64,000 nucleotides of DNA from Symbiodinium sp. CCMP2592 (lineage: Eukaryota; Sar; Dinophyceae; Suessiales; Symbiodiniaceae). The notes below the pieces were generated by a model. It did not search any database, was not told the origin of the DNA, and was given only the letters and a program-made list of their open reading frames with translations. The stretch covers positions 354,910 through 418,909 of the forward strand of contig CAJNDT010001280.1 in the NCBI GenBank assembly GCA_905221615.1. Reading direction: 5' to 3'. Made by a program: the position numbers and the translations under genes. This document shows positions 14,769 through 47,399 of the stretch, one piece after another (the stretch's first letter is position 1; the number at the start of each line of letters is the position of its first letter).

Positions 14769-14843
14769 AAAACCCTAAACCCTAAACCCTAAACCTTAAA
14801 CCCTAAACCCTAAACCCTAAGCCCTAAACCCTAAACCGAAACC
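14769..14843. repeat. CCCTAAA telomere-like array
   Basis: Around ten CCCTAAA units with few substitutions (CCTTAAA, GCCCTAA). Confidence 0.9.
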
Positions 14844-26925: not shown

Positions 26926-27076
26926 TATAGAATACACCAAAACCGTTAAGCCATGAGCGAGCTAAGACTCTTTTACTCAGAGGGCTTGGGCACAATAGTC
27001 AGCGGTATATAGTACACAACATGATGACTGTACACGACCATACAAACTCCTACGCAAGCTGCGATGCAAAACTACA
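26926..27076 (-). repeat. 3' LTR of the copia element
   Basis: Identical 151-bp partner of the 5' LTR. In the sense direction it is preceded directly by a G-rich polypurine tract and followed by AAACC (plus-strand GGTTT), the target duplication, then by degenerate CCCTAAA repeats. Confidence 0.92.
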
Positions 27077-27087: not shown

Positions 27088-27396
27088 TAAAGGCACGGTC
27101 ACTGCATCCAAAAACACAGCATACCTTCGCCTGCAGGTGGAAGAGCGCTTCGGCTCGGAGTTTGACGATCGGCGTGGAGTTGCCTCCCGCGTCATCAGTT
27201 CAGCAAAAGTACATGTGACTATCGTGTGCCTCGAGGAAGGGTGCGAAAAACTGCATGCAAGCTTTTCTTCAAATGCAAGACGCTGGTTTCAGCGTGGAGC
27301 AAGGATGATAGGAGTTCGCCGCACAGCCACTTGAAAAATATCACAGGCCGTGAACGTCCCTCTTGCTCGAAAGAATCAGACTACTGGGTCGGCTTA

Positions 27397-28813
27397 TCAG
27401 TTCCAACGCCATCCGCGATTGCGCCACTCACGCCAGTCCTGGTTGTCCCAGTTCTGGCCGCTCCATGTTCCCCAGGATGACGAAGACCAATTCTGCCACC
27501 AGGATTGATTATCCCAGTCCCAGTCGCGGTTGGTGCGATCGGCGGCCTCGGCGTTAGCCGGGCTTTTGCCTTTTCCCTTCTCTGCTGCTCGGGCATATGT
27601 AGAGCCCTTACCACCACCTGGCGGATGCTGCTGGGCATACTTCGGCTGGGCAGCACGACTTTGATTGGCCTTCTTGATGGTTTCCTCAACCGTCTCCACC
27701 ATGAAGGGAAGGTCCTTTGCCAAAACGGTCTGTAGGTCCGTACCCACTGCAGCGGGATCGTAGTTGAGGAAATCCACCTTGCCGTGGCCAAAGGTCTGTA
27801 GACGGATGCCCCCCTTTTGCTTGGCGATGTTGTGAGCGAAATCTTGGAACGAAAGGATGGCTCCGTACCATGTAAATGCTACTGGCGTATCCTCCGGCGT
27901 GGACGTTAGTCCCGCTGCGCACAACTTACCGCCAATGCCATCGTCTCCGGTAAAGAAAACGATACGACACTCTGGAACCTCGTCCGTGCGGGTCTGGTGC
28001 GTGGAACTCGCCGCTCTGGAGGATCCAATAGCCAGCATGCGTTGCGATCGAGTGCGGCCAGGGTTCGGAAGGTAGGCGAAGCAGAGGCAGTCGAGGGCAC
28101 GGATCGTTCTGCGTGTGTATCCCTCTTTGGCCATTGAAATTGCGTATTCATTGTCATGATTGAACCTCGCTACGCAATCAGTGTAGCCCTTTTTCACGGC
28201 TCTCTGCTTTGCCACTTTGGCTTTCCGAATAACCTCGCCTTCTAAGGAGTTCATGCCACGGCCGGCGACATCTTTCGATGCGCTTTGAAGGCTTGGCCTC
28301 ACTCCCACTCGTTCAGCGGCATCACCCATCTCCTGAAGCAGAGCTTCACGCCCACGTGCCAACAGCGTCCGTCTGCCCTGTGCCTTCAGTTGACCTGGTC
28401 GAACTGGCCCTCCGCATTGAGAGCAAATCCTTTGGCCTTGAAGACACTCAGCTTTGCAGTGGTAGCGTTTGATTTTCTCCAAAAACGCGGCGGATGGCTT
28501 GGTCTCACTACCAGCATAAAGTACTGGTTCTGGCCTTCCCACCGGCTCCTGGATTGCTTCAACTGGTGTACCCTCAGCATCCAGCGTCACCGTTGTCGCC
28601 ATTCCGTCACCGATGTACACAGTCCTGATTGGAGGACCCGGCTGTGCAATGATGGTGCCTGGTTCAACAAGCGGCCTCTCCTCTACGGAGGGCATTTGTT
28701 CATCACCAGGAGCTTCATCGTCGTCAGCCTTTGCAGGGGCATCGGTGATAGCCAACGATCCCTCAAGTACGTCAGCAACATCTGGAATGGGCGGTATAGG
28801 GATGTTTCCTCAG
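27397..28813 (-). CDS. Pol segment 3: C-terminal extension with Cys-rich stretch and Trp-rich tail
   Basis: This frame is open from about 28813, in the -1 register to segment 2, and overlaps it by ~130 bases. The Pro/Asp/Glu-rich linker of segment 2 appears to continue here (IPIPPIPDVADVLEG), so a single-base change near 28,810 most likely separated them; no slippery heptamer is evident. It contains a C-x3-C-x6-C-x2-C stretch (AECLQGQRICSQCGG) that may bind zinc, then a mixed region not recognised. The tail is Asn/Trp/Ser-rich with W repeated every few residues, resembling RNA-binding or low-complexity tails. It lies between the Tpt1-like domain and the 3' LTR. Two hairpin repeats (28674 and 27545) lie within it. 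Confidence 0.7.
27545..27563 (-). repeat. Bulged-A hairpin repeat 19 (before Trp-rich tail)
   Basis: Sense: GCC, CGGC, loop TAAC, GCCG, bulged A, GGC, then CG. It directly precedes the Trp-rich tail. Confidence 0.85.
28674..28693 (-). repeat. Bulged-A hairpin repeat 18 (overlaps stop of pol segment 2)
   Basis: Sense: GCC, CTCC, loop GTAGA, GGAG, bulged A, GGC, then CG. The segment 2 stop codon is read from the loop. Confidence 0.8.
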
Positions 28814-31800
28814 CTGGAAGGGTACCATGTTCTTCATCAATAGGCGGTGCGAAATTGTCCTGAGTCGTCTCCTCAGCCTCTGGTTCATCAAGAACGATAT
28901 CGATGCCGGCCTCAGCGTTAGCTGGGCTTTCACCTTGTTCCGCCTCATCAGGAGGGACAGTGCCTCCCGCACGGGACCAAAGTGTGACATCGCATTGCGT
29001 ATCATTGATCAACAAGATGGTCGAGCCGGGTACTGCCTCGGAGCACAGTATGCCATCAGACTCCGTAAGGAATAGGTCGCAGCCAGCTTCGAGGACCTCC
29101 CGGGTGTCAAAGACGATCTCAATCGGTGCGTTTGCACGAAGTCCTGAACGTACCTTTTGCTCTTCGAGCGGCAGCGGCGCAAAGTAACAATGCGCCTTTT
29201 CAGAACCTCCAAAACCAGGCAACAAACGATCTTCCAGAATCGCATACGCCGCATCATGTGTCGTGCGATGATAGAGTCTGGGCGGCGCCTTGTCAATCGG
29301 GATCAACGGCCTGCCCTCTCGGGCGGCGTTAGCCAGCTCTTCAGAACGCTGCAGTGTAAGATATGCCTTTGCAATAGAGGCATTGTCGAGCTGCAGATTG
29401 CTGGAGTGGCCCTGCGTACTACCGACGTAGACCGGAAAAGCCGGTTGGCCAATTGCATCGGCAGCACTGTCCATTGGTCCGCGAAAAATAAGGCGCTGTT
29501 TGTTGTCGGTGGCGATCATGTCGAGGAGAATTCCTAAACCAATGTTGCTTCCAGGTCTGCATCTGTTGGCAACCTCAAGCACTTCCATGGCTAGGACCCA
29601 CGGCCCGTCCCACGACTGCATTTTAAATTGATTACCCTTGTTCTCGAAGTTGCCCCTGATCAGCCCCGTGACAAACGTGACCGTCTTGTGGTCACACTGG
29701 GGGTAATGCAGACCAGGAGTCATGTCCTTCTGGAATACTTCGATGTACTGGACGGCCTCCTCTTGCGAGGGGCATTCATTCCAGTAATCGTACAGGGTAA
29801 TGCCAGTCATCTCGGCGAAGTCGTAGGTGTCATTCATGAACCTCATTCCGCGCGATCCCTGCACTGCGAGCTTGGTCAATCGCTGCTTGTCGGCCTCAGC
29901 CTTTGCGAGGCGAGCTCTTTTTGCAGCGTGCTCGGTGCCAGAATCGCCAGACAGAATGCCCCCACCATAAATGGATGCGTCGATCGGCATTGGTCGAATA
30001 TCGCCAGAAGACGAAGCTGCAGTACTCGCCGGGGTAACGGCCTCCACCTTAGGTGGGGCTTTGTTCCATTCCGGCGAATTGATCTCCTTTTCTGTTGCGA
30101 AAACACCAGGTGCGACGCTGATGACATTCTGAATCTTCATCTCCTTGAGGAAGTCGGGGACCTCAGGCGCAGGCAGCTCGGCGTGACTTTCGTCACGCTT
30201 CTCCTCCCAGTATGCATCGTCCCACGGATCCTCCTCCGTTGGCTCCGCCTTCACTTGCTTGCTCCTGGACATCTTCGCCAGAGTAATCTGAAGAACCTGA
30301 TTATCAATGGCGTAGCGTCCTCGAGAATCAAAATAATTCTCAGCGAGCAGCGACTTGAAGGCATCCTCTCCCATCTTGGCGATGGCCCTGGCAGCATACC
30401 TCTCAGCAATCTGACTTTGCATAATATGCGCCAGCCCGGATACCATGCGACGACGAGACTCGGAGTCCTCGCGGAAGTGGACGTTGTCGTTGTAGAGCGC
30501 CAAATCTCCAAGGAAGGGGTGGATGTCACAGGCGGCGAGTCCTCTACGGACCGCTTCATCCTTGAATCGCGCAATGCATTCATCAAACTGCTTTGGCAAC
30601 CCGTAGACGAAGCTGCGAATTCCTGTGCAGATCACAATGGACCCCACATATGGAGAACGGCGCTGCACGTCTGCAAGCGCTTCAAGGTTTTGGCAAACTC
30701 TCCGACAGATCTTTTGCCAATCTCCGCAGGCTTCTATGGGCGATTGATGGTCCCACCACGTCGGGACGCCGGGGCTGCAAAATATCCCGTATCTGCCGAC
30801 GATCTCATTCGCCATCCAGACAATCTGCACGTCCACCAGCAACTCTGGGTCGCCAGAGTAGCGCAGAGCCGTCTGGTCACAGAGGATCTGAGCCCTCTCC
30901 CGAAGCTCGGACAATGTTTTGCCCCACAGGGGTTCGTAAATTATCTCCCTGTATTGCAGATAGACCCCCGAGCTCGCTGCCTTCAAATCCGAGGAAAGGT
31001 CTGTCCTCGTTCTCTTGCCGGCGACGAAAACAGTCGTAGAGTCGGAGAGGAGGATGAGCACCCGCTTTCGGCCTCGATTTTCATCGGGCTTTAGCTGCGG
31101 CATGCCAGACTGCGTCAGTGCTGCCACTCGGTTGAGCCCTGGATATCGATCCGTTTCAAAGCAGTTGTGAGCAGCCACTTGCACCGGCATGTACTGAAAA
31201 AGTGCTCGCAACTCTCCTTCGTCAATCGACTCTTGGAAGCCTATCGACTCGTGACTGATGACGGCCGCCCAGAGCTGGCGGCCCCAAAACTCGGCCAACT
31301 GCTCTTCGTAGGTCGCCATCGCTCTTCTACTCTCAGCTGCTACCACGGGACTAGGACCCGGCCTCAGCGTTAGCTGGGCTTTAGTTGTACAGTAAAGCGA
31401 TGACAAAGCTGCGCATGCCAGTCCTTCATGTACCTTAGGTCCATCATTATCCTTAGTGGTATGCACTTGCCAATCAGCATGCAATGCCGAAACCTTGGTT
31501 TTCGATGTCCTTAGTCGTCCACAGTCCTGGGTAGCTTCGAGCAGCAGCCGCTTCAATCGAAAAGACGATGCAAAGATCAGCGACCCATTCTTGTGTTTCT
31601 CAAGACCGAAATCGTGTGCCACTTTCACAACAGCAGGCATACACCACATCTCGTTGTTATCTGAAGCTTCCAACAGCAGGTGGGGCCTAAGACGTTTGGT
31701 TAATCGGCATAACGACATTAACGATTTCAGACATTTGTTCCATTCGTGGTCCGGCAGCGATGCAAAGTAGAGAATCGGTTTTGTGCTTCCCCCCTCGTCG

Positions 31801-34800
31801 CAGAGGGAACGAAGATTGTTAGCGATTTTTGCCATTGCTTTCGGATTCATAGTTTCAAGGTTGTTCGGGACAGGGATAACACGACAGGAATCATTTCCTG
31901 ACAAGGTGGTTTCACTAGCGTTCCCAAAGTCAAGCAAAACCCTGCAAAAGTCCATCGGCCTCGGCGCGAGCCGGGCGTCTGCAGGAGCGGCCGCCGCAGA
32001 CCCGAGCCTAAAGCCGTGTTTGTTGAGGGTTTCAAGATCAGTTGTGGAAAGCTTGGGAAAACCACGAGAGGTATAAGCGGTGATAGAAAATCGTTTTCCG
32101 GTATAAGGCAACACGCAGTGTTTCTTAGCTGGGTCAAAGACAAAGGGTTTGCTATGGGTGTCATGCACATCCCCTTTGATGGATCGTCCTTGAGCGTCTT
32201 TCTGGAACTGCGCCTTAGTGTCCGAAACAGTCTGGTCTTCAACCCACAATCGACCTCCTTTGTGGTCACCAAAGCTAACCATCAGGTTCTTAGAACCCTT
32301 TAAGTTATGGGAATCAGCATGAACTTTTGCCATGTTGTCCTTGCTAATCACCACTGAGGTCCATGTGAAACCTGAGTCGGGAGAATGAGCTTTCACGAAC
32401 TCATTCAAGTACCTGGCAACTGCGGGATACCTAGTAGTGCTTCTGGTAACACCTTGCATTCCACCGTGTGTCCAAGTTCCGTACACTTGATAATAGCCTT
32501 GTTTCTTTGATGCAATGCGAGGTCGCTTGGATTTCCTAGCTGTATGATTTGATGCAATCTCTTCACACAACCTTTCCAAAGCATCACAGCCGTACTCCTT
32601 CAGGCGGGAAAGTTCTGAAGCAACCATTTCAACCTCCTGAATGGCAGCAGCTGCTTTAGCACGTTTGCCTTGAACCTCGTGTGGTGTAGGAGAGCGGCCT
32701 GGCTTTTCAGCCGGCTTCGCATTCTGCGCATCAGGTACATGATTGATGAGCCTAAGCGCGTGTTCCCACTTACCACGTTCAGCAAACGGTTTTGTGAAGA
32801 TGTCTGCGACCTGCTCTTTGGTATCAACATTGATCATGTTGAAATGGCCCTTTTCGAACTGTTGCTTCATCCATGCAAACGAAAGTCGTTGCGTCCTATC
32901 GGTATGACGAAGCTTTTCACTGTCACCTTTCGCAATGATGGTGATTGTAGCTTGGTTATCTTCTAAGAACTGAACCTGAAACTTTTCAGAAAGATGAACA
33001 TCCAAGCCATTTATATCCGCAACAGAGCGTCCTTCATGACTGAGTTCACCATACCTGATTGCATCAAGCTCCGGGTCAATCCTTGCAACGATTGTTTCCG
33101 TGACTTTAGGTGATTCCGCCGGCGGCCTGGTCTTTCGACCGGCTGCATTAGCGGTAACCTCTCCCCAAAGGTAACACCACAAGCTTAAGCTAGGCAGGCC
33201 TTGTGCTCTGATGCCGTGATTCGCTGAAACCACTTCACTTTCGGTGCTAGACGTCGTGATGCTGGTCTGTTTCTTTGAAAAAGCGTTCAACGGGTAGTAA
33301 GTGTTGGGCCCAACCAAGAACAGTGCGCATCCTGATGTGGATTTGGAATCAAATTCTCCTGCCCAATCAGCGTCACAGAAGAGCCACAACTTACAGTCCG
33401 AAATCTTATCGCCAATAAAACCCTGCATCGTGATGTCCAAGCTCGAATTGATGTAGCAGATCAGCCGATGTAAACCGACATCGCAGTCTCTTGACCACTT
33501 CGTGACCCTGGAAGCGAGCGACTGGGTACACCGAAGTAAGTCCCACCTTGCCATCCTTGCTGCAAACAATACCTTCATGAGGACCCGACTGGCAATCGGT
33601 TGCAACCTCCCCTGGGGTTCGTTGCCTTCCGCAGGTTTGGCTACTCTGTTCTCATGAAACGGCGTAGCTGCAAACTTCAGGGAATCACGTGAAACTTTAG
33701 CTAATTCACAGTACTTGTCGACACAGGAGACCAGGAAGTCCTTCATGTCATACGTCACAACGTTGACAGGCTTAGTCATAGCGGGGACGGGTTCCTTGAT
33801 GATCGTATCAGTGCTCTTAAATCTAGACTGCTTAGCTTCGCGCTTAGCGTCTGATTTGCTTCTCATCGGCCTGCCCTTTCGGGCGGCAGCAGCGAGCTTA
33901 AAGTCGTCTGCCGTCGTTGGCATGATAGAGAAGATTGTTTTGCCCGTCCACCACTCGTTTCGCCTAGCAGGGCCCCCCTGATTGGAATCATCCTGTATCT
34001 GATCTCCATTCTCAAACTCTGTTATGCGTTCAGTTCCCAGAGTGGGAAACTGTCTCATGTCGTCTTCACTTGGTACGTACAAACGCTTTCTGGGGTACCT
34101 GTGATGTCTGATTGCAAGCGCAGCATCCGGATCAACCTCCCAATAATCTTCTGTTCTACTCGGCCTGGAGTTTCCTCCGGCTGCTGGTGCTGCAATTTTC
34201 TTGTCGAAGACATAGGCAAAAGGATGTGCGCTACGGTCAAGCATAACACCGTTCTGCTCTCGATGATTGCAACCAAAGTATCTCCCAAATGGTTCCGAAG
34301 GATCCATATCCAAAACCTTCCCAATCCCCTCCCATCCCTTAGCAAGATTGTCCTTTGGTCCTGCCATTTTGAAATCGTCGACGTAGACGACGAGGAGGAG
34401 ATCTAATTCCGGATGGTAAAAGATACTTTGCCATATATCTGGAAGAACCGGGATCCACCCTATGCTCTTCAACTGAGCAGTGCAGTGTCGTTCCCAGATG
34501 CCGCCGCTATCAGGATGTCCATACAAAGCGAGTCTGAGAGGACAAACTGGGTCGCGAAAGTTGCGCCACTCGGGCGGTCGACGATTCTTGGGAAGTCGAA
34601 CCCAAGTCGCAATCCCTTTGAACAAAGCTTGAGTATACGCTTGTCGAGCATCAGCTTGCTGTTTTGCATAGCCTGGTTGGCTTCCGAATACATCGATGAA
34701 TTTACCCGCTTCCATACTTGCAGGGCTAGAACCCAGTTCGGCGAAGATCGCGTGATCCGCATTTTCATCTCGAACCTGGTTCCCCTGGAACACAGAGCGT

Positions 34801-36542
34801 CCCTTGTAGTACTTAAGCGGATTGCCATCCTGCAACTCGGAACCCTTAAGGCTGCAAATCTCGAACACGTTCCCGAAGTGAGCCTTTTCGCCTTTTGCCT
34901 TGGTTTCAGACAAGACGTCGTCGTACTCACGAACCTGTTTCTCAAGCCAACACCCTTTATCAAGAAGTTTCTTCCATTCTTTGTCCATAGCAGCCTGAGC
35001 CTCAGGGTTTCTGGCAACATCATTCTGATTGATAAGCTTGGCAACCACAGCGAAAAGATCCTCGCAAGTTTCCTCTAGCTTATCCAGAAATAAACCGTGC
35101 AACCTCTTCCCATCCTCAGGCGTCCTCGGTCGATGAGGTTCTCGATGTCCAAGGAGAACAGGCATAGCGGGAGCTTCTTTCTCTCGTTCTTCTTTTAATC
35201 TAGCTTCCTCCCGCGCAACCTTCTTCTCCCATCGTTCGATTTCCTCTTTTCGTTGTTGTGCGGAATACATGTGCCAGAATTCAGACGGGACATCAGGAGG
35301 TCTTTTGGAGCCTTTCTTGTTCCTCACAAGTCTAACCCCATCCCAATTGTAACCAGCAGGAACCGGTCTACCATCAGGATATTTCGTGGGATCAAACAGA
35401 TCACCTTTGGAACTAGACGATGGCTCACTGGGCCTAGGCGCGGCCTCACCTTTCGGTGGGCTTTGATCGTCATCGGGTTCGGGTTCGGATAAGCCGATTT
35501 CATCAAGAAGTTCGCCTGCCTCACGAAGTCCCCGTTCCTTTTCTTCATCTGAAGCATGAATGTTCTGATCATCCAACAGTGGAACCTCGTGTGCCTCGCG
35601 ATCCTTGATCCTTCCCGATTGAAGTGGGAACTCAAAACTCCCCTCAATCAACTCAACGCGCTTAGCCCTGATGACCTTGAGGTTTCCGTCCTCAATGGCA
35701 AACTGTGCGTCTTTCACGGGTGCAATCAAATACTCCTTCTTCCAAACAAACCCTGGTTGGATATGGTATCCCAGGAAGATCCCTTCAACCCCAGTTGACG
35801 AAAACTTGGAAGTCTCCGGAACATTCTGTTTAGGGTTATGCCAATACAAGACCTTAGCTCCGAAAGGAACAATCAATCCCGCAAAGGATTCCCCAAAGCG
35901 TGCCTCCCATGGGATTTCACCAGTATCCACTCGTTTTGTGAGATTGAGCGCAACGGAGTGGTGCTGAGCTGCTAAAGGCCAAAACCGTTCTGGAAGACCG
36001 GCTTGCTCCAAGTTCGAGCGCGTACCCTCTAGTACGGTGCGGATTTCCCGTTCGATGACGGCCTTAGTTTCATCCACGTACTCTCTAGAGGTGTTGTGCC
36101 TACATCGGAGTTCCTTCACAGCTGCTCCCAACTCCGGCGCATTGTCAGAGTAAATAACCCCAACTTCGTCTTGCGTACCGAAAAAGTGCAGAAGGTCCTC
36201 ATGCACTTGTTCCGTTGATTTTGTTGCGCTAGGATACACATACCTAAATTGCGAAAATACATCTTTGATAACAAGCGCCACCTTCTCATCCTGAAATCCA
36301 AAGTCCCTCAGATCTCTTGTCACGAGATGATCAATGGTAACATGATCCCCATACTTTTCACTGTGTATGGTCGAAGACCCCCCCCTTTCTTCGAGCTTGG
36401 GGAGATAGCATCTTCGCCTTTTGGCACACTTTGCAGAATGGGTTCTTAGGACGATGGCAGAATTGATGATGGATGCTTTCGGCCTCGGCGCGAAGCCGGG
36501 CTTCTTGCGAGATTTCCCTTCCCTCATCTTCTTCCTTGTCAC
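28683..36542 (-). CDS. Pol segment 2: integrase core, RT, RNase H, TET/JBP-like dioxygenase, SGNH-like and Tpt1-like domains
   Basis: Residues are numbered from a nominal GTG at 36542; true entry is by readthrough from segment 1 near 36,380. The integrase core has D71 (VTIDH), D133 (SDNAPE) and E164 (IERE). RT spans ~500-760, with DARQAY at 631, an ALYGHPDSGG motif and YVDD at 720-723. RNase H has CDADWAG at ~1055, TESE and EDNQ, ending FTKPF at ~1247. A 2OG-Fe(II) dioxygenase-like domain (~1340-1500) has H1408-x-D1410, GFGD/GGxLW-like sequence (SFGDHKGGRLWVE), H1475 and R1484-F-S. An unassigned region covers ~1530-1720. An SGNH-like domain has SDS at S1835, N ~1910 and D2019-x-x-H2022. A Tpt1/KptA-like domain has DNKQR ~2344, QGHS ~2375, YHRT ~2427 and ends near 2515. 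The frame is open for 2,619 residues. Cargo functions are inferred from motifs only. Confidence 0.88.
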   Translation of the reverse strand: MTRKKMREGKSRKKPGFAPRPKASIINSAIVLRTHSAKCAKRRRCYLPKLEERGGSSTIHSEKYGDHVTIDHLVTRDLRDFGFQDEKVALVIKDVFSQFRYVYPSATKSTEQVHEDLLHFFGTQDEVGVIYSDNAPELGAAVKELRCRHNTSREYVDETKAVIEREIRTVLEGTRSNLEQAGLPERFWPLAAQHHSVALNLTKRVDTGEIPWEARFGESFAGLIVPFGAKVLYWHNPKQNVPETSKFSSTGVEGIFLGYHIQPGFVWKKEYLIAPVKDAQFAIEDGNLKVIRAKRVELIEGSFEFPLQSGRIKDREAHEVPLLDDQNIHASDEEKERGLREAGELLDEIGLSEPEPDDDQSPPKGEAAPRPSEPSSSSKGDLFDPTKYPDGRPVPAGYNWDGVRLVRNKKGSKRPPDVPSEFWHMYSAQQRKEEIERWEKKVAREEARLKEEREKEAPAMPVLLGHREPHRPRTPEDGKRLHGLFLDKLEETCEDLFAVVAKLINQNDVARNPEAQAAMDKEWKKLLDKGCWLEKQVREYDDVLSETKAKGEKAHFGNVFEICSLKGSELQDGNPLKYYKGRSVFQGNQVRDENADHAIFAELGSSPASMEAGKFIDVFGSQPGYAKQQADARQAYTQALFKGIATWVRLPKNRRPPEWRNFRDPVCPLRLALYGHPDSGGIWERHCTAQLKSIGWIPVLPDIWQSIFYHPELDLLLVVYVDDFKMAGPKDNLAKGWEGIGKVLDMDPSEPFGRYFGCNHREQNGVMLDRSAHPFAYVFDKKIAAPAAGGNSRPSRTEDYWEVDPDAALAIRHHRYPRKRLYVPSEDDMRQFPTLGTERITEFENGDQIQDDSNQGGPARRNEWWTGKTIFSIMPTTADDFKLAAAARKGRPMRSKSDAKREAKQSRFKSTDTIIKEPVPAMTKPVNVVTYDMKDFLVSCVDKYCELAKVSRDSLKFAATPFHENRVAKPAEGNEPQGRLQPIASRVLMKVLFAARMARWDLLRCTQSLASRVTKWSRDCDVGLHRLICYINSSLDITMQGFIGDKISDCKLWLFCDADWAGEFDSKSTSGCALFLVGPNTYYPLNAFSKKQTSITTSSTESEVVSANHGIRAQGLPSLSLWCYLWGEVTANAAGRKTRPPAESPKVTETIVARIDPELDAIRYGELSHEGRSVADINGLDVHLSEKFQVQFLEDNQATITIIAKGDSEKLRHTDRTQRLSFAWMKQQFEKGHFNMINVDTKEQVADIFTKPFAERGKWEHALRLINHVPDAQNAKPAEKPGRSPTPHEVQGKRAKAAAAIQEVEMVASELSRLKEYGCDALERLCEEIASNHTARKSKRPRIASKKQGYYQVYGTWTHGGMQGVTRSTTRYPAVARYLNEFVKAHSPDSGFTWTSVVISKDNMAKVHADSHNLKGSKNLMVSFGDHKGGRLWVEDQTVSDTKAQFQKDAQGRSIKGDVHDTHSKPFVFDPAKKHCVLPYTGKRFSITAYTSRGFPKLSTTDLETLNKHGFRLGSAAAAPADARLAPRPMDFCRVLLDFGNASETTLSGNDSCRVIPVPNNLETMNPKAMAKIANNLRSLCDEGGSTKPILYFASLPDHEWNKCLKSLMSLCRLTKRLRPHLLLEASDNNEMWCMPAVVKVAHDFGLEKHKNGSLIFASSFRLKRLLLEATQDCGRLRTSKTKVSALHADWQVHTTKDNDGPKVHEGLACAALSSLYCTTKAQLTLRPGPSPVVAAESRRAMATYEEQLAEFWGRQLWAAVISHESIGFQESIDEGELRALFQYMPVQVAAHNCFETDRYPGLNRVAALTQSGMPQLKPDENRGRKRVLILLSDSTTVFVAGKRTRTDLSSDLKAASSGVYLQYREIIYEPLWGKTLSELRERAQILCDQTALRYSGDPELLVDVQIVWMANEIVGRYGIFCSPGVPTWWDHQSPIEACGDWQKICRRVCQNLEALADVQRRSPYVGSIVICTGIRSFVYGLPKQFDECIARFKDEAVRRGLAACDIHPFLGDLALYNDNVHFREDSESRRRMVSGLAHIMQSQIAERYAARAIAKMGEDAFKSLLAENYFDSRGRYAIDNQVLQITLAKMSRSKQVKAEPTEEDPWDDAYWEEKRDESHAELPAPEVPDFLKEMKIQNVISVAPGVFATEKEINSPEWNKAPPKVEAVTPASTAASSSGDIRPMPIDASIYGGGILSGDSGTEHAAKRARLAKAEADKQRLTKLAVQGSRGMRFMNDTYDFAEMTGITLYDYWNECPSQEEAVQYIEVFQKDMTPGLHYPQCDHKTVTFVTGLIRGNFENKGNQFKMQSWDGPWVLAMEVLEVANRCRPGSNIGLGILLDMIATDNKQRLIFRGPMDSAADAIGQPAFPVYVGSTQGHSSNLQLDNASIAKAYLTLQRSEELANAAREGRPLIPIDKAPPRLYHRTTHDAAYAILEDRLLPGFGGSEKAHCYFAPLPLEEQKVRSGLRANAPIEIVFDTREVLEAGCDLFLTESDGILCSEAVPGSTILLINDTQCDVTLWSRAGGTVPPDEAEQGESPANAEAGIDIVLDEPEAEETTQDNFAPPIDEEHGTLPAEETSLYRPFQMLLTYLRDRWLSPMPLQRLTTMKLLVMNKCPP
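28909..28927 (-). repeat. Bulged-A hairpin repeat 17 (after Tpt1-like domain)
   Basis: Sense: GCC, CAGC, loop TAAC, GCTG, bulged A, GGC, then CG. It closes the Tpt1-like domain. Confidence 0.85.
29309..29327 (-). repeat. Bulged-A hairpin repeat 16 (inside Tpt1-like region)
   Basis: Sense: GCC, GCCC, loop GAGA (GNRA), GGGC, bulged A, GGC, then CG. It lies between the QGHS and YHRT motifs, at the junction of the two lobes of the Tpt1-like fold. Confidence 0.85.
29755..29773 (-). repeat. Bulged-A hairpin repeat 15
   Basis: Sense: GCC, CCTC, loop GCAA (GNRA), GAGG, bulged A, GGC, then CG. It lies upstream of the Tpt1-like domain. Confidence 0.8.
29893..29911 (-). repeat. Bulged-A hairpin repeat 14 (degenerate)
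   Basis: Sense: GCC, TCGC, loop AAAG, GCTG, bulged A, GGC, then CG. The inner stem has one G-U pair and one mismatch, so this may be a decayed copy or chance. Confidence 0.4.
30040..30059 (-). repeat. Bulged-A hairpin repeat 13 (SGNH-Tpt1 linker)
   Basis: Sense: GCC, CCAC, loop CTAAG, GTGG, bulged A, GGC, then CG. It lies in the disordered linker after the SGNH-like domain. Confidence 0.8.
31361..31379 (-). repeat. Bulged-A hairpin repeat 12 (before SGNH-like domain)
   Basis: Sense: GCC, CAGC, loop TAAC, GCTG, bulged A, GGC, then CG. Same arms and loop as copy 17 but translated in a different frame (AQLTLRPG versus SPANAEAG), so the nucleotide rather than the peptide is conserved. Confidence 0.85.
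31959..31977 (-). repeat. Bulged-A hairpin repeat 11 (after dioxygenase domain)
   Basis: Sense: GCC, CGGC, loop TCGC, GCCG, bulged A, GGC, then CG. It lies at the C-terminal edge of the dioxygenase-like domain. Confidence 0.85.
32697..32715 (-). repeat. Bulged-A hairpin repeat 10 (RNase H-dioxygenase linker)
   Basis: Sense: GCC, GGCT, loop GAAA, AGCC, bulged A, GGC, then CG. It lies between the end of RNase H and the dioxygenase-like domain. Confidence 0.85.
33125..33143 (-). repeat. Bulged-A hairpin repeat 9 (inside RNase H region)
   Basis: Sense: GCC, GGTC, loop GAAA, GACC, bulged A, GGC, then CG. It lies in a long insertion between the TESE and EDNQ motifs of RNase H, so it interrupts a domain rather than flanking one. 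Confidence 0.85.
33869..33887 (-). repeat. Bulged-A hairpin repeat 8 (RT-RNase H linker)
   Basis: Sense: GCC, GCCC, loop GAAA, GGGC, bulged A, GGC, then CG. Translated AARKGRP in the RT-RNase H linker. Confidence 0.85.
34163..34181 (-). repeat. Bulged-A hairpin repeat 7 (after RT palm)
   Basis: Sense: GCC, GGAG, loop GAAA, CTCC, bulged A, GGC, then CG. It is translated as an Ala/Gly/Pro-rich insert about 65 residues after YVDD. Confidence 0.85.
35443..35461 (-). repeat. Bulged-A hairpin repeat 6 (integrase-RT linker)
   Basis: Sense: GCC, CACC, loop GAAA, GGTG, bulged A, GGC, then CG. It lies in a Pro/Ser-rich linker between integrase and RT. A second AGGCC-containing stretch directly adjoins it. 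Confidence 0.85.
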
Positions 36543-36966
36543 TATCGGGCTCGATTAAGGGGTCGTCCTCGGGTCTTTTGAAAGCAGTAATCGACAGAAT
36601 TGGCGATCCATCAATCTTTTGATTTTTAACCCTTAGACTTCTGATGTCAACAGAATCCTCAATCTTGCTCCAAGCAGAGTCCTTGTAGATCCAAGTGGTC
36701 CTTCGCGCGAACCTTGGATGACGAGGTGCAGGTACTCGCAAAGCCTTTGGCCGATGACCAATAATGATCTTTGATGCGGCAATTTCACTGCCAGTGATCC
36801 AACCTGGCTTGGCTAAATCTTTAGGCTTGATTGCAATTGGCGGTGCAGCATTGATGGCTTCTTCTATCTCGGAGTCGCTGTGGACGACTCTTTCATCCCC
36901 GGCCGGTCCTCTCGGACGGCTTTCTACTGGAAACCCGAAGACTCGTCCTCCGCAGGTGCCGCCAGT
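36358..36966 (-). CDS. Pol segment 1: N-terminal region with HHCC zinc-binding domain of integrase
   Basis: This frame is open from 36966, overlaps the end of gag in the -1 register, and stops at 36358. It would be translated by frameshift rather than from its own start. The product runs through an acidic linker and a region with W-I-T-G-S-E. It then reaches H-H-Q-F-C-H-R-P followed by C-K-V-C-Q-K-A-K (about 36400-36470), matching the GAG-pre-integrase HHCC zinc-binding domain of copia elements. The frame then runs out after an eight-G run (plus 36378-36385). The integrase core continues in another register immediately afterwards, so one G appears to have been gained here. Confidence 0.8.
   Translation of the reverse strand, partial: TGGTCGGRVFGFPVESRPRGPAGDERVVHSDSEIEEAINAAPPIAIKPKDLAKPGWITGSEIAASKIIIGHRPKALRVPAPRHPRFARRTTWIYKDSAWSKIEDSVDIRSLRVKNQKIDGSPILSITAFKRPEDDPLIEPDSDKEEDEGREISQEARLRAEAESIHHQFCHRPKNPFCKVCQKAKMLSPQARRKGGVFDHTQ
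36482..36501 (-). repeat. Bulged-A hairpin repeat 5 (before HHCC domain)
   Basis: Sense: GCC, CGGC, loop TTCGC, GCCG, bulged A, GGC, then CG. It sits just before the HHCC integrase domain. Confidence 0.85.
36902..36920 (-). repeat. Hairpin repeat 4, candidate frameshift stimulator
   Basis: Sense: GCC, GTCC, loop GAGA (GNRA), GGAC, bulged C instead of A, GGC, then CG. It begins nine bases after the GGGTTTC heptamer and directly follows the gag stop. Confidence 0.85.
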
Positions 36967-39900
36967 TCAACCTTGACTGTACCGGCGTTAAACACCTGAG
37001 TTCCAGCAGATTTCTGGGAATCATCAGCGCTTGCTGGGCTCGCTACCGAGTCATCATTTGAGATCACTGGGACTCTACCCTTCATCTTACACTTGATGAC
37101 TTTACCATCGGGAGCTATAAAGTATGGAACCTTGCCCGCAGGCCAATGGAAATCATATCCATCGTCCATGCATCTTCTCCCAACAGAACAAACCGGTGGC
37201 GTGCTTTCCAGTAGATAGCACTCAATGTTTTGCTTCAGTTCAGGCATCGGGATGTTGGTTGACTTGATTCCCTGAACTGGACCATTAGCTGTAATCAAGT
37301 TGACCGGCCTACTAGCGTTTTCGATGGGAGCCTCTGGGTAGTAGATAGAGTGATCGTGCCTACTGATCAGATCTTCTTCACTGCCAGTATCGGCGAGGAA
37401 TTCTAATCCCGCATTAAAGCTAGAGCATGCTGTTCTTTCCACGCTAGAACACAGCTCGCACTTCAACACTGCAACTGGGATCTCACCCTCTTCGCAGTCA
37501 TCTGTGCACTCGTACTCACAGTGGCTTTCAATCCCATTGAGCATACAGGACATGATCCTGGCAAGCTCGTTCGCTGTTCTTATGGCCGTGCTTAGGTCCT
37601 GAACTGGAGGCTTTGGGCAGCTTTCAGCATCCAAGTAACAAACTTCGAAAGTTCGCGGTTTGGTCCTATGCTTCTTACCCTTACCATCCAATGGAATCTC
37701 CCGAATGCTTGGCTTCTCCTTGAACCTTAATTTCTTGAACGTTCCTGAAGCATCACCCTTAACGCCTTGCCCATTGGGCACAGCTGCCAGCGCATACGAA
37801 ATGCAACAAGCTGCCGTGCGTCCGCCAGACTTTTCCTTGCTCTTGGACCTGCCCCTTTGTTTCTTTTCCTTCTTTGCTTTAGGATCCGGGGTCGGACTCC
37901 TAGGCTTTTCATCGTTCTTCGCAGGGGCGGCCTGCTCGGTAGGAGCGGCGTCAGTTGGATTGGGCTTATCTTGATGCAGGAACCTACAGTCTTTGCCTTT
38001 GTTGCACTTGCCTTTCTTCCAAAAGGTGCAAATCGCGTTAATCTTCTTCTGAGGTGTTCGATGAGGACTTGGGGATCTTGACTTTGGTTTGTGGAGAAAC
38101 TTACACTTGTCGCCTCTTGTGCATTTTCCTTTCTGGAAGTCGTAACAAATCTGTTGCGTTTTGGGACTCTGAGATCTAGGCGGTGTTCGTTGGCTCGATC
38201 CTTTGCTGCTCGTTCTGGATTTTGAGCTACTTCGGGACATGCTTCTTCCACGGCCTCCTCGTGAAGAGGGGCGACGTTCAGATCCGTACGCTGGGGCTCC
38301 GTATCTATCGCCATGCGACTTAGCGATGCGGTCACGATTCTTGCGCATACGCTCTCTAGTCAGATGCTCCCTAATGGCATTGACGAGGAATTCATACGTG
38401 TGTATGGGGTTTCCTTCCTTTGCCCTGTCGTACAACTGAAGATCGTACTTGATGTGGTGGGATTTCCGAATTTCCCTCAGCAAAATGTCCCTCAAGGTAA
38501 CTTCATCCGGAACATGACTCATTCCAGCAATCACCGACTCGAAGTTGTAAAGGAAGGTAGCCAAATCGTCCCCAACCAACTTCACTTTTAGAAGGTCTTC
38601 TACGCTATAGAGGCTTCCGACTTCCTCATTAGTCTTAAAGTGTTGATGAAACATCCACAACACTTGTCTTCCCCTGACGGCGCGTCCTCCTGTGGCCTCT
38701 GTTTCTTTGAAGTTTAGGACTTGCCTTGAAATCTGTCCTCTAGCGACTCTGGTAAGTGCAGCCAACAACTTCGTGTCCAATGTTAAGAATTTCCCAGTGT
38801 CGTGTAAGGACTTGAGGGTAGCCTCTTTATCGTATACTTCCTGTACCCAGCGAAATGCCTCATCCGGGCGATCGCTCGCAGCCCGCACAATCTCGCGGAC
38901 CGAGATCCGCCATGATCGGTAGGTCTCTGGATTAGGGTAATCGGGAAGCTTGATGCTTTCGGCTTCTTTCACCTTTGGTTTGCCCTCTTCATCTTCGGTC
39001 TTAGGGGTAAGCAAGCGAGCTGCCCTAATCAATGCCTCAGCTCCGAAATCAACAGTTGGAACCCCTTCTGGATCAACAGTCGCCGGCTTACCCGCTTGGG
39101 CAGCTTTAGGAGACTTTTCCTTTTGTGGCTCTCTGTTCTCAAACCCAGGTGGTACAGAAGTTCCTTGCGGAGGTTCCTGAGCTTGCGGCGTTCTTCCGAA
39201 GATGTCCTTCATATTCTCGGGAATCTCAAATGGATTTGAGAACGGGACAGCGGGATTAGGTCCTGGCTTCGGCGTGGCATATTGTTTGCCCGCTTCGTCC
39301 GCATTGGCTTCCATTCTTAGGGCTCGTTCTGCAGCAGCCAGTTCATCCTGCAGTCTGTCGTTTTGTGCACTCATTTCAGCGATTTCAGTAATGAAACGCC
39401 GTTCCATACTCGCTTCGGTTTCTTCAAGAACTTGTTTGAATCGCATTCCAAGAAAATCAAGATGTTGTGCTTTGTTGCGTTCGCTCTCAGCAATCAGAGT
39501 AGTTCTGAGCTTAGCGATTTCCGTCTGATGTCGTTGTTGGAAAATTGATTCCAGAATGTTCATTTCATTTCTGCATGTTGCAACTTCGTTCAACAAAAAC
39601 TTTTCCCTTTGGGATGCGTTGAACTCAAATTCCGCAAACTGTGCTTCGCATTCTGCCATCTTCACCTCATGAAGGCGCCCGGCCTGTTCAGCCATGCCAG
39701 CCATTCTCACAAGGTTATCATGCGATTGTTGGTTCAGAATGCTTGCGTGTCTTCTTTCAGCATCTGCCTCCGTTCGCTCTATTGCCGTTCTTTGTTGTTC
39801 AGCTGTCTCACCCTGGTTCACAACATTGTACAAGGTATACTGTACGTTTGAGATGTCGACCGTTGGATTTGAGACAAATGGAGATAGGGTAGGACCCACT

Positions 39901-40076
39901 GGACCGAAGATCCTATCAAGTGCTTGGGATCCTGAGCTCGGTGCCATAGGGCCCGCGCCAGCTGCTGTAAGTTGTTCATCAAGCAGTCGATCTCTTGTTT
40001 CGTCGTCCATCTCGTCTGATGATACTTCGGTTGTTTCTCCCTTCTCAGTAGTGAGCAGAGAGGGCGAAGTGCTCAT
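36924..40076 (-). CDS. Gag-protease polyprotein (coiled coil, two CCCH fingers, aspartic protease)
   Basis: This is a 1,050-residue frame from the first ATG after the primer-binding site (40076; begins MSTSPSLL). The frame is open upstream into the LTR from a TTG at 40211, but an ATG is the better start. Residues ~85-250 are heptad-like and charged, a likely coiled coil for Gag assembly. After an Arg/Ser-rich stretch come two zinc fingers of spacing C-x7-C-x5-C-x3-H at ~644 and ~682 (plus 37975-38150), replacing the CCHC knuckle usual in Gag; they probably bind RNA. DTGSEEDLI at ~896 (37380-37392) is the D-T-G of a retropepsin-like protease. The frame stops at 36924 at a likely -1 frameshift site leading into pol. 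Hairpin repeats at 38253 and 37930 flank the fingers. It should form the virus-like particle and process the polyprotein. Confidence 0.9.
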   Translation of the reverse strand: MSTSPSLLTTEKGETTEVSSDEMDDETRDRLLDEQLTAAGAGPMAPSSGSQALDRIFGPVGPTLSPFVSNPTVDISNVQYTLYNVVNQGETAEQQRTAIERTEADAERRHASILNQQSHDNLVRMAGMAEQAGRLHEVKMAECEAQFAEFEFNASQREKFLLNEVATCRNEMNILESIFQQRHQTEIAKLRTTLIAESERNKAQHLDFLGMRFKQVLEETEASMERRFITEIAEMSAQNDRLQDELAAAERALRMEANADEAGKQYATPKPGPNPAVPFSNPFEIPENMKDIFGRTPQAQEPPQGTSVPPGFENREPQKEKSPKAAQAGKPATVDPEGVPTVDFGAEALIRAARLLTPKTEDEEGKPKVKEAESIKLPDYPNPETYRSWRISVREIVRAASDRPDEAFRWVQEVYDKEATLKSLHDTGKFLTLDTKLLAALTRVARGQISRQVLNFKETEATGGRAVRGRQVLWMFHQHFKTNEEVGSLYSVEDLLKVKLVGDDLATFLYNFESVIAGMSHVPDEVTLRDILLREIRKSHHIKYDLQLYDRAKEGNPIHTYEFLVNAIREHLTRERMRKNRDRIAKSHGDRYGAPAYGSERRPSSRGGRGRSMSRSSSKSRTSSKGSSQRTPPRSQSPKTQQICYDFQKGKCTRGDKCKFLHKPKSRSPSPHRTPQKKINAICTFWKKGKCNKGKDCRFLHQDKPNPTDAAPTEQAAPAKNDEKPRSPTPDPKAKKEKKQRGRSKSKEKSGGRTAACCISYALAAVPNGQGVKGDASGTFKKLRFKEKPSIREIPLDGKGKKHRTKPRTFEVCYLDAESCPKPPVQDLSTAIRTANELARIMSCMLNGIESHCEYECTDDCEEGEIPVAVLKCELCSSVERTACSSFNAGLEFLADTGSEEDLISRHDHSIYYPEAPIENASRPVNLITANGPVQGIKSTNIPMPELKQNIECYLLESTPPVCSVGRRCMDDGYDFHWPAGKVPYFIAPDGKVIKCKMKGRVPVISNDDSVASPASADDSQKSAGTQVFNAGTVKVELAAPAEDESSGFQ
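36930..36936 (-). promoter_or_regulatory. Putative -1 ribosomal frameshift slippery site GGGTTTC (gag to pol)
   Basis: In the gag frame the codons read TCG GGT TTC CAG TAG, so G-GGT-TTC is an X-XXY-YYZ heptamer in the correct phase just before the stop. After nine bases (CAGTAGAAA) comes the 7-bp hairpin at 36902-36920. The pol frame is -1 to gag, opens at 36966 and overlaps gag by about 43 bases. Heptamer, spacer, structure and frame all match the canonical -1 design. Function is inferred. Confidence 0.75.
37930..37949 (-). repeat. Bulged-A hairpin repeat 3 (after CCCH fingers)
   Basis: Sense: GCC, GCTC, loop CTACC, GAGC, bulged A, GGC, then CG. It lies in the Ala/Pro-rich linker just after the second CCCH finger, so copies 2 and 3 bracket the finger module. 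Confidence 0.8.
38253..38272 (-). repeat. Bulged-A hairpin repeat 2 (before CCCH fingers)
   Basis: Sense: GCC, CCTC, loop TTCAC, GAGG, bulged A, GGC, then CG. It lies in the Arg/Ser-rich stretch upstream of the two CCCH fingers. Confidence 0.8.
39086..39104 (-). repeat. Bulged-A hairpin repeat 1 (gag linker)
   Basis: Sense: outer stem GCT/AGC, inner GCCC/GGGT (one G-U pair), loop AAGC, bulged A, then CG. This is the only copy whose outer stem differs, and the change is compensated on both arms. Confidence 0.7.
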
Positions 40077-40130
40077 GTACCAATGCGAATACCAGTGTAA
40101 GAATACCACGGAGACAAAGTCAGCGAATAC

Positions 40131-40141
40131 GGCTGATAACC
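40131..40141 (-). other. Primer-binding-like site (GGTTATCAGCC)
   Basis: The sense sequence GGTTATCAGCC directly abuts the 5' LTR, where minus-strand priming should occur. It resembles the TGGTATCAGAGC site that many plant copia elements use to bind initiator tRNA-Met, with differences. The primer tRNA is therefore an inference. Confidence 0.6.
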
Positions 40142-40292
40142 TATAGAATACACCAAAACCGTTAAGCCATGAGCGAGCTAAGACTCTTTTACTCAGAGGG
40201 CTTGGGCACAATAGTCAGCGGTATATAGTACACAACATGATGACTGTACACGACCATACAAACTCCTACGCAAGCTGCGATGCAAAACTACA
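40142..40292 (-). repeat. 5' LTR of the copia element
   Basis: In the element's sense (minus) direction it begins TGTAG and ends TCTATA, so the 5' end is canonical TG but the 3' end is not the usual CA. It is identical to the 26926-27076 copy. A TATA-like ACTATATACC lies mid-LTR; dinoflagellate promoters often lack TATA boxes, so its role is uncertain. The gag frame is open back into this LTR from a TTG at 40211, but the first ATG is inside the element at 40076. Confidence 0.92.
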
Positions 40293-40297
40293 GGTTT
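40293..40297. repeat. Target-site duplication, right copy (GGTTT)
   Basis: The plus-strand GGTTT directly after the LTR matches the GGTTT at 26921-26925 before the other LTR. Five bp is the usual duplication for copia integrases. The target is a TTTAGGG-type repeat, so part of the match could be chance. Confidence 0.75.
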
Positions 40298-40364
40298 TAG
40301 GGTTTAGGGTTTTAGGGTTTGGGGTTTAGGGTTTTAGGGTTTAGGGTTTAGGGTTTAGGGTTGT
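40298..40364. repeat. TTTAGGG array flanking the copia element (right side)
   Basis: TTTAGGG/TTTTAGGG units continue outward from the right target duplication. With the short array at 26908-26925 they form the split target site. Confidence 0.9.
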
Positions 40365-43356: not shown

Positions 43357-43447
43357 AACCCTAAACCCTAAAACCCTAAAACCCTAAAACCCTAAACCCT
43401 AAAACCCTAAAACCCTAAACCCTAAATCCTAAACCCTAAAACCTAAA
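43357..43447. repeat. CCCTAAA/CCCTAAAA array at the 3' end of the LINE
   Basis: About 12 units of CCCTAAA and CCCTAAAA end in (ACTC)n and then the LINE. In the LINE sense direction this is its 3' tail. Confidence 0.9.
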
Positions 43448-43596
43448 ACTCACTCACTCACTCGCGCGCCAGAGGAAAGTCCTGTGCTAGTCAGACATGC
43501 AGTGGCCGAAAAGCATCCCTGCTGTAGGGATGCGGCCAGAAGGAACTACGAAATAAAAGGGAAGCGAAGCAGCTGTACAGACGGGGAGCGAACGGC

Positions 43597-47116: not shown

Positions 47117-47305
47117 TAAACCAAAACCTAAAACCCTAAATCCTAAAACTCGAAAAACCCTAAAACCCTAAAACCCTAAACCTAAACCCTAAAACTCTAA
47201 AACCTAAAACCCTAAATCCTAAAACCCTAAAACCCCAAACCCTAAAACCCTAAAACCCTAAACCCTAAAACCCTAAAGCCCTAAACCCTAAAAATCCTAA
47301 AGCCC
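47117..47305. repeat. CCCTAAA/CCCTAAAA array at the truncated 5' end of the LINE
   Basis: About 25 units, same orientation and same 7/8-bp mixture as the array at the other end of the LINE. Confidence 0.9.
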
Positions 47306-47399
47306 TACAATGCCAAGTTCTCGTGACCCTGAACCCAAGGGCCCGACTTGGATCTCCACCATACCCTGACAGTCCAAAGTGAGCCCGGAACCAAGGAAT

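Follow-up and report, generated by a model that had tools for sequence, protein, structure and literature searches.

What are tens of small bulged hairpins, all read from one strand, doing inside a dinoflagellate retrotransposon? The question is raised by a Ty1/copia-type element (family A, sense on the minus strand) in a 64,000-nucleotide (nt) stretch of Symbiodinium sp. CCMP2592 (GenBank assembly GCA_905221615.1, contig CAJNDT010001280.1, positions 354,910 to 418,909), referred to below as the window. At least four families of such elements were found to carry sense-strand units of one geometry, about 20-45 in each element. Judging from the sequence comparisons, it is near certain that selection acts on the hairpin structure. 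The hairpins may be cis-acting sites, dispersed along the genomic RNA of this dinoflagellate copia-type clade, by which Gag recognises and packages that RNA, a reading for which we consider the chances evenly balanced.

When the strict form (GCC-N4-loop(3-7)-N4'-A-GGC) was searched, 17 perfect copies were found on the minus strand between 27301 and 40300, with CG directly after in 17/17, and none on the other strand of the element. The remaining 51 kb of the window contained 3 such forms on both strands, none with CG after. A relaxed form (GCn...nGCC; 3 bp with any third outer pair, any one-base 3' bulge, 4 bp and a loop of 3-5 nt) gave 23 sense units and no antisense units in the element, and all 23 were followed by CG. 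The preliminary description of this DNA had reported at least 19 co-oriented bulged-A units inside one retrotransposon; the co-orientation stands (23 sense, 0 antisense), while the bulge is not always A (A in 20, T in 2 and C in 1 of the 23). The stems and loops were as it had listed them, except that the GAAA loop occurs in six strict copies and not in five. The copy with a changed outer pair is real (at 39104), and codon views confirmed that units are read in all three frames. The 23 units are given below together with one imperfect copy and one extra candidate; B denotes a related family, and R1 a covariance model trained on two more distant families, C and D.

39086..39104, minus: GCT GCCC aagc GGGT a AGC, then CG; B positional partner, weak flanks
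38253..38272, minus: GCC CCTC ttcac GAGG a GGC, then CG; same site and stem in B
37930..37949, minus: GCC GCTC ctacc GAGC a GGC, then CG; strict and relaxed pattern
36902..36920, minus: GCC GTCC gaga GGAC c GGC, then CG; C bulge, directly past the gag stop
36482..36501, minus: GCC CGGC ttcgc GCCG a GGC, then CG; missed by the C/D model R1
35443..35461, minus: GCC CACC gaaa GGTG a GGC, then CG; B positional partner CCCC ggaa GGGG with a two-base bulge
34163..34181, minus: GCC GGAG gaaa CTCC a GGC, then CG; B partner CGGG gtga CCCG
33869..33887, minus: GCC GCCC gaaa GGGC a GGC, then CG; B partner GCT GCCT ccaa AGGC a AGC
33125..33143, minus: GCC GGTC gaaa GACC a GGC, then CG; B partner AACC atca GGTT
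32697..32715, minus: GCC GGCT gaaa AGCC a GGC, then CG; strict and relaxed pattern
31958..31976, minus: GCC CGGC tcgc GCCG a GGC, then CG; B positional partner, stem identical
31361..31379, minus: GCC CAGC taac GCTG a GGC, then CG; B positional partner
31071..31089, minus: GCC CGAT gaaa ATCG a GGC, then CG; B partner CGGC gata GCCG
30888..30910 (including 2-base flanks), minus: extra candidate GAG CTTC ggga GAGG g CTC; found by the C/D-trained model
30535..30554, minus: GCG GTCC gtaga GGAC t CGC, then CG; missed by the C/D model R1
30040..30059, minus: GCC CCAC ctaag GTGG a GGC, then CG; missed by the C/D model R1
29893..29911, minus: imperfect copy GCC TCGC aaag GCTG a GGC; one position unpaired
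29755..29773, minus: GCC CCTC gcaa GAGG a GGC, then CG; loop GAGA or GGAA in other copies
29309..29327, minus: GCC GCCC gaga GGGC a GGC, then CG; B partner GCCT atca AGGC
28909..28927, minus: GCC CAGC taac GCTG a GGC, then CG; B positional partner
28674..28693, minus: GCC CTCC gtaga GGAG a GGC, then CG; strict and relaxed pattern
28265..28283, minus: GCG CATC gaaa GATG t CGC, then CG; T bulge
27897..27915, minus: GCG GGAC taac GTCC a CGC, then CG; B positional partner
27545..27563, minus: GCC CGGC taac GCCG a GGC, then CG; strict and relaxed pattern
27172..27190, minus: GCG GGAG gcaa CTCC a CGC, then CG; downstream of the last open reading frame (ORF)

Two of the 23 units lie outside the three long ORFs (36902-36920 and 27172-27190). 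Besides the 23, two-base-bulge matches were observed at 37542, 37412 and 34760, and these are probably due to chance. Folded alone, all 23 units form a bulged 7- or 8-bp hairpin; when the 60 neighbouring bases on either side are folded with them, 17 stay intact and the other six rearrange in part or entirely. The TAAC units cluster in the 3' part of the element.

The two arms of the stem had been said to change together. In a pairing-blind test, 18 GCC...AGGCCG frames left room for a loop of 4 or 5 bases, and in 17 of them the inner 4-bp stem was fully paired (12/13 with 4-base and 5/5 with 5-base loops), as claimed; 0/6 were paired at other spacings (0-29). Shuffled sequence or unrelated DNA might have done as well, and neither did: dinucleotide shuffles of the element (500) gave the strict form 0.09 times on average (maximum 1) against 17 observed, shuffles gave the relaxed form 0.08 times, and 50.6 kb of other window sequence had no relaxed form on either strand. 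When codons were shuffled synonymously, keeping the protein and the codon usage (300 shuffles), the frames of families A, C and D averaged 0.28, 0.50 and 0.24 hairpins and reached at most 2-3, against 15, 20 and 21 observed; for family B, where any four-base loop was accepted, 16 were observed against a mean of 2.5 and a maximum of 8. Chance or coding bias as the source of the hairpins is ruled out by both kinds of shuffle and by the antisense control.

A genome search with the GAAA and TAAC forms returned 261 and 573 places, respectively; among the matches listed (about 100 of the 261 and 573, read in part), the perfectly paired places were family A unit sequences. Rfam gave no family in the window; the one weak match obtained, to sR39 (E 0.22), was under the gathering score. 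The search of viral contigs for relatives yielded 30 pattern matches, none of them confirmed, and no account of these hairpins was found among the listed titles and abstracts on dinoflagellate, mobile or retrotransposon hairpins (open-licence PMC text only).

When 17 units with four-base loops were compared with eight pieces of four other A copies (flank: 60 bases on each side), changes amounted to 5/882 in the stem and 460/7556 in the flanks, so that stem change was tenfold below the flanks, with 0/63 at the bulge and 10/252 in the loop. Among copies of C and D the changes were 9/1218 (stem), 228/10427 (flank), 5/87 (bulge) and 3/348 (loop). Loop changes between copies went from GNRA to GNRA or from TNRC to TNRC, except AAGC to AAAC at 39104. 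In a wider unit set, broken pairs were also present (for example, 5/77 in A against copy L021). The comparison indicates that the stems and the loop class are held, and that the bulge base is held in A and not in C or D. The shuffles, the antisense control and the divergence of copies together bear out the earlier claim of a selected, strand-specific nucleotide structure with covarying stems.

Family B shares 67-68 % protein identity with A in a piece of the reverse transcriptase (RT) and accounts for 31 of 104 scored matches, the other 73 being family A. The counts for B, C and D come from one copy per family in one genome; two further copies each of C and D were checked with the A/B descriptor only, and in the copy comparison above. 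The B copy (C368) contains 23 units of A-type geometry in the sense strand only, with a dialect of its own: CA before the stem in 19/23, CA after the stem in 14/23, mixed loops, and A (14), T (7) or C (2) as the bulge base. Four units with a TTA triloop and a T bulge were observed in the 3' part of C368 (L009; sense offsets 6125, 7289, 7670 and 8693). A P0048 query gave 63 scored candidates, three at A-copy places and the rest family-B-like, and no closer family was found among them.

When the 19 A units in gag and pol (including the three two-base-bulge matches taken as chance) were examined, 11 had a B unit at the aligned position, against a mean of 1.1 in random circular shifts, of which 0/5000 reached 11. 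One additional shared site in the third ORF brings the number of pairs to 12. The stem differs in 10/12 pairs, both arms together. Flanks were well aligned (at least 16/40 residues identical) in 6/12 pairs, with the stem changed in 5 of the 6; the remaining 6/12 were matched by position alone. In the A unit at 33887 the outer pair is changed too, GCC...GGC against GCT...AGC in B. At A-B homologous sites the hairpin persists while both arms change.

Families C and D are more distant from A and were found with the P0021 query. Their loops are GNRA or UNRC (GAAA, GGAA, GAGA, TAAC, TGAC, TAGC and others in C; GGAA, TGAC, TGGC, GGGA and others in D), and all seven stem pairs vary. When this loop class was required together with a 4-bp inner stem and a single 3' bulge, the sense/antisense counts were 20/0 in C, 21/0 in D and 17/0 in A; family B, which is without the loop class, gave 1/1. 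Smaller excesses were counted for inner stems of 3 bp (15/1 in D and 7/0 in C) and for two-base bulges (5/0 in D), and some of these cases are 4+3 rather than 3+4. A looser set (3+4 or 4+3 bp, one- or two-base bulges) comprised 20, 2, 28 and 42 sense units in A, B, C and D, with 2, 0, 0 and 2 in antisense; in this set a C stands directly before the unit in 29/30 cases in family C and 41/45 in family D. Common to A, C and D are 7 bp and a 3' bulge four (sometimes three) pairs under a GNRA/UNRC-type tetraloop. The form first described, GCC/GGC with a bulged A and CG, holds in family A and is the family A dialect of this wider architecture. A further, more distant copia family in the genome (about 60 % identical to P0108; 36 scored matches, namely C5234, C5314, C1158 and 33 others) was located.

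The covariance model R1 was trained on 45 C/D units (49 found, 4 outside ORFs dropped), and the window element was kept out of the training. The top 13 matches over the window were all on the sense strand of the element, and 12 of them are known A units; up to E 10, 29 matches were obtained (23 element sense, 3 element antisense, 3 elsewhere). R1 recovered 20/23 A units, and the three missed have five-base loops. Single matches are weak (best E 0.002). Applied to family B, the model gave 6 sense matches, all of them B units, and 2 antisense (best E 0.27).

Sites with a hairpin in one family only, in both the A-B and the C-D comparison, mostly show coding sequence of the same length in the alignment, and the encoded peptide is often conserved (for example, D ...RPVETEAEAKGKL vs C ...RPVEAEAEAKGKL); a few unshared units fall in gapped, poorly aligned parts. 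As most unshared sites lack an indel, the hairpins appear to be gained and lost mainly by substitution. An insertion facing an empty site in the relatives was not seen at most unshared sites, a few lying in gapped parts, and the codon alignments largely reject a mobile-insertion model. C and D share 8/27 sites (shift mean 2.7; 14/5000 reach 8). Family A shares 0/9 with C and 1/11 with D, and 2/6 with the second halves of C and D (440/5000 reach it). Since sharing between A and C or D is not above chance, the sites turn over and the architecture stays.

The window element belongs to Ty1/copia by its long terminal repeats (LTRs), gag, copia-type pol and predicted copia capsid fold. Its parts are as follows.

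40142..40292, minus: 5' LTR, at least 151 nt
26926..27076, minus: 3' LTR, at least 151 nt, identical to the 5' LTR
36924..40211, minus: gag-like ORF, 1095 amino acids (aa)
38313..38942, minus: predicted helical capsid-like domain, converted from Gag model residues 35-244
37974..38147, minus: tandem CCCH zinc fingers inside the gag-like ORF
28683..36542, minus: pol-like ORF, 2619 aa, Ty1/copia type by homologues, with a Tpt1/KptA-like domain near its end
27397..28755, minus: third ORF, 452 aa

The Gag of family A is predicted to combine a capsid-like fold with tandem CCCH fingers. The finger ligands make up 8 of 14 invariant columns across 29 Gag sequences. Foldseek with the Gag model gave nothing at E of 0.001 or lower; the 100 weak matches had CCCH fingers and retroviral capsids at the top. 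The third ORF of the window copy is in a different frame from pol (overlap 28683-28755, minus strand), and in many other copies the frame open at the RT piece is longer, often about 3187 aa. A Tpt1/KptA-like domain (RNA 2'-phosphotransferase; PF01885, E 2.6e-8; 29040-29600, minus strand) is encoded in the 3' part of pol. It seems an unusual cargo for a copia element, and one hairpin sits within it. Removal of the hairpins by tRNA-type splicing, an idea suggested by this domain, was dropped because open frames pass through nearly all hairpins. Telomere-like interstitial AAACCCT arrays are frequent in the window (for example, 14770-14837, 43357-43449 and 47123-47307), and one (40292-40362) adjoins the outer end of the 5' LTR.

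The preliminary description had suggested a protein-binding or packaging signal, and this is still the likely kind of role, as far as sequence can tell. We propose that the hairpins would act in RNA with Gag as their reader. The capsid-like domain and tandem CCCH fingers of Gag would bind many hairpins along one RNA and thereby select the element's own 13-14 kb RNA from among host messenger RNAs (mRNAs), and binding of many hairpins would drive assembly of a ribonucleoprotein or virus-like particle. Differences between families in loop, bulge and flanks might then reflect co-evolution of Gag and its sites. A stronger version, rather doubtful in our view, is that each family's dialect is read only by its own Gag, a self/non-self packaging code running through coding sequence and evolving as transcription-factor sites do.

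A protein may see GNRA and UNRC loops as a single shape. Loops of the UMAC type, found in lambdoid phage boxB RNA, take a GNRA-like fold (PMC12550061). Because UMAC loops fold in this way, the GNRA and UNRC loops of A, C and D may look alike; the extension from UMAC to UNRC is our own. The likeness to boxB lies in the GNRA-like loop fold, and several A and C units have UAAC as their loop. BoxB is not known to carry a 3' bulge at four pairs' distance from its loop or to recur tens of times, whereas A, C and D units have such a bulge and number tens per element. The MS2 operator resembles the present units in stem length (about 7 bp), single bulge and loop size (four bases). It differs in its loop and in having its bulge on the 5' side; the sense-strand excess in A, C and D was found on the 3' bulge side.

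Dispersed sites have precedents in RNA viruses. In MS2 (pseudo-packaging sites; PMC8472981) and human parechovirus 1 (PMC5431903), a single genomic RNA has many short sites that touch coat protein and have a recognition motif in common. The hairpins are similar in that many sense-strand sites occur per genomic RNA (with few antisense in the looser set, A 2 and D 2) and share a structural motif with variable stems under selection. They are unlike them in belonging to an LTR retrotransposon, in their strict geometry and family dialects, and in that binding is predicted only. Among LTR retrotransposons, a review of Ty1 and Ty3 places the Ty1 packaging sequence near the 5' end, regards scattered further sites as likely but undefined, and describes packaging sequences overall as not clearly defined, with scattered sites possibly contributing (PMC4974528). 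The packaging and dimerisation signals of Ty1/Ty3 would be similar as cis-acting RNA structures for Gag in an LTR retrotransposon; unlike the Ty1 sequence near the 5' end, the present sites are dispersed over the coding region.

The best-surviving alternative, possible though somewhat unlikely, is that some protein besides Gag, of the host or of the element, reads these selected RNA hairpins, and that they serve the nuclear export, stability, translation control or trafficking of an unusually long RNA and not its packaging. Three points favour this: all evidence of structural selection fits another protein equally, the spread over the whole transcript suits export or stability complexes, and the role of Gag rests on sequence and a predicted fold. 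A host reader common to all families, however, might be expected to keep one dialect, and the preferences for loop, bulge and flanks are not the same in A, B, C and D; moreover, such hairpins are few elsewhere (2 in 50.6 kb of the window on both strands, and 1 in 27.7 kb of flanks plus one locus).

An RNA-RNA function is improbable. GNRA loops are classical docking motifs, and GNRA-type loops could dock in receptors or helices of the same RNA, compacting or dimerising it, in keeping with the loop class kept in A, C and D; however, family B loops are mostly not GNRA-like though the geometry is kept, and docking leaves the fixed bulge distance unexplained. A role for the hairpins at the level of single-stranded DNA, within the plus-strand complementary DNA and for example in integrase action or priming, is very improbable. 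The strand asymmetry would look identical, but we know of no step in the copia cycle that needs 20-45 dispersed plus-strand DNA hairpins, itself a weak objection.

The self-spreading micro-hairpin also put forward at first, one inserting its own copies, is now hardly credible. REP palindromes, byp elements and double-hairpin elements are inserted short repeated hairpins, and the units resemble them as short repeated hairpins in genomes. Local clusters of alike units (TAAC in the A 3' part, TTA with a T bulge in the B 3' part) would fit such spreading, as would the few unshared units in gapped parts, which may have arisen by insertion. Most unshared sites, however, align without an indel, several of them in strongly conserved peptides, C and D stems are not copies of each other, and the perfectly paired GAAA and TAAC places among the matches listed (about 100 of 261 and 573) were A unit sequences; unlike those elements, the units were apparently built mostly by substitution in coding sequence. 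Least probable of all is a mutational artefact in which template switching perfects imperfect palindromes without selection, which would yield perfect arms but leaves unexplained the fixed 3' bulge, the 4-bp distance, the loop class, the sense bias, the recurrence across families and the fact that stems in A diverge tenfold less.

The hairpins bear on the way in which LTR retrotransposons pick out their own RNA: with about 20-45 sites of exact geometry per RNA, in at least four families of one genome, the packaging question becomes directly testable. The elements present a case of dozens of structure-only sites laid over polyprotein coding sequence. If the hairpins are packaging sites for Gag, they would be to retrotransposons what dispersed packaging signals are to RNA viruses, and if each dialect is in addition read only by its own Gag, co-resident families would avoid packaging each other and host mRNA.

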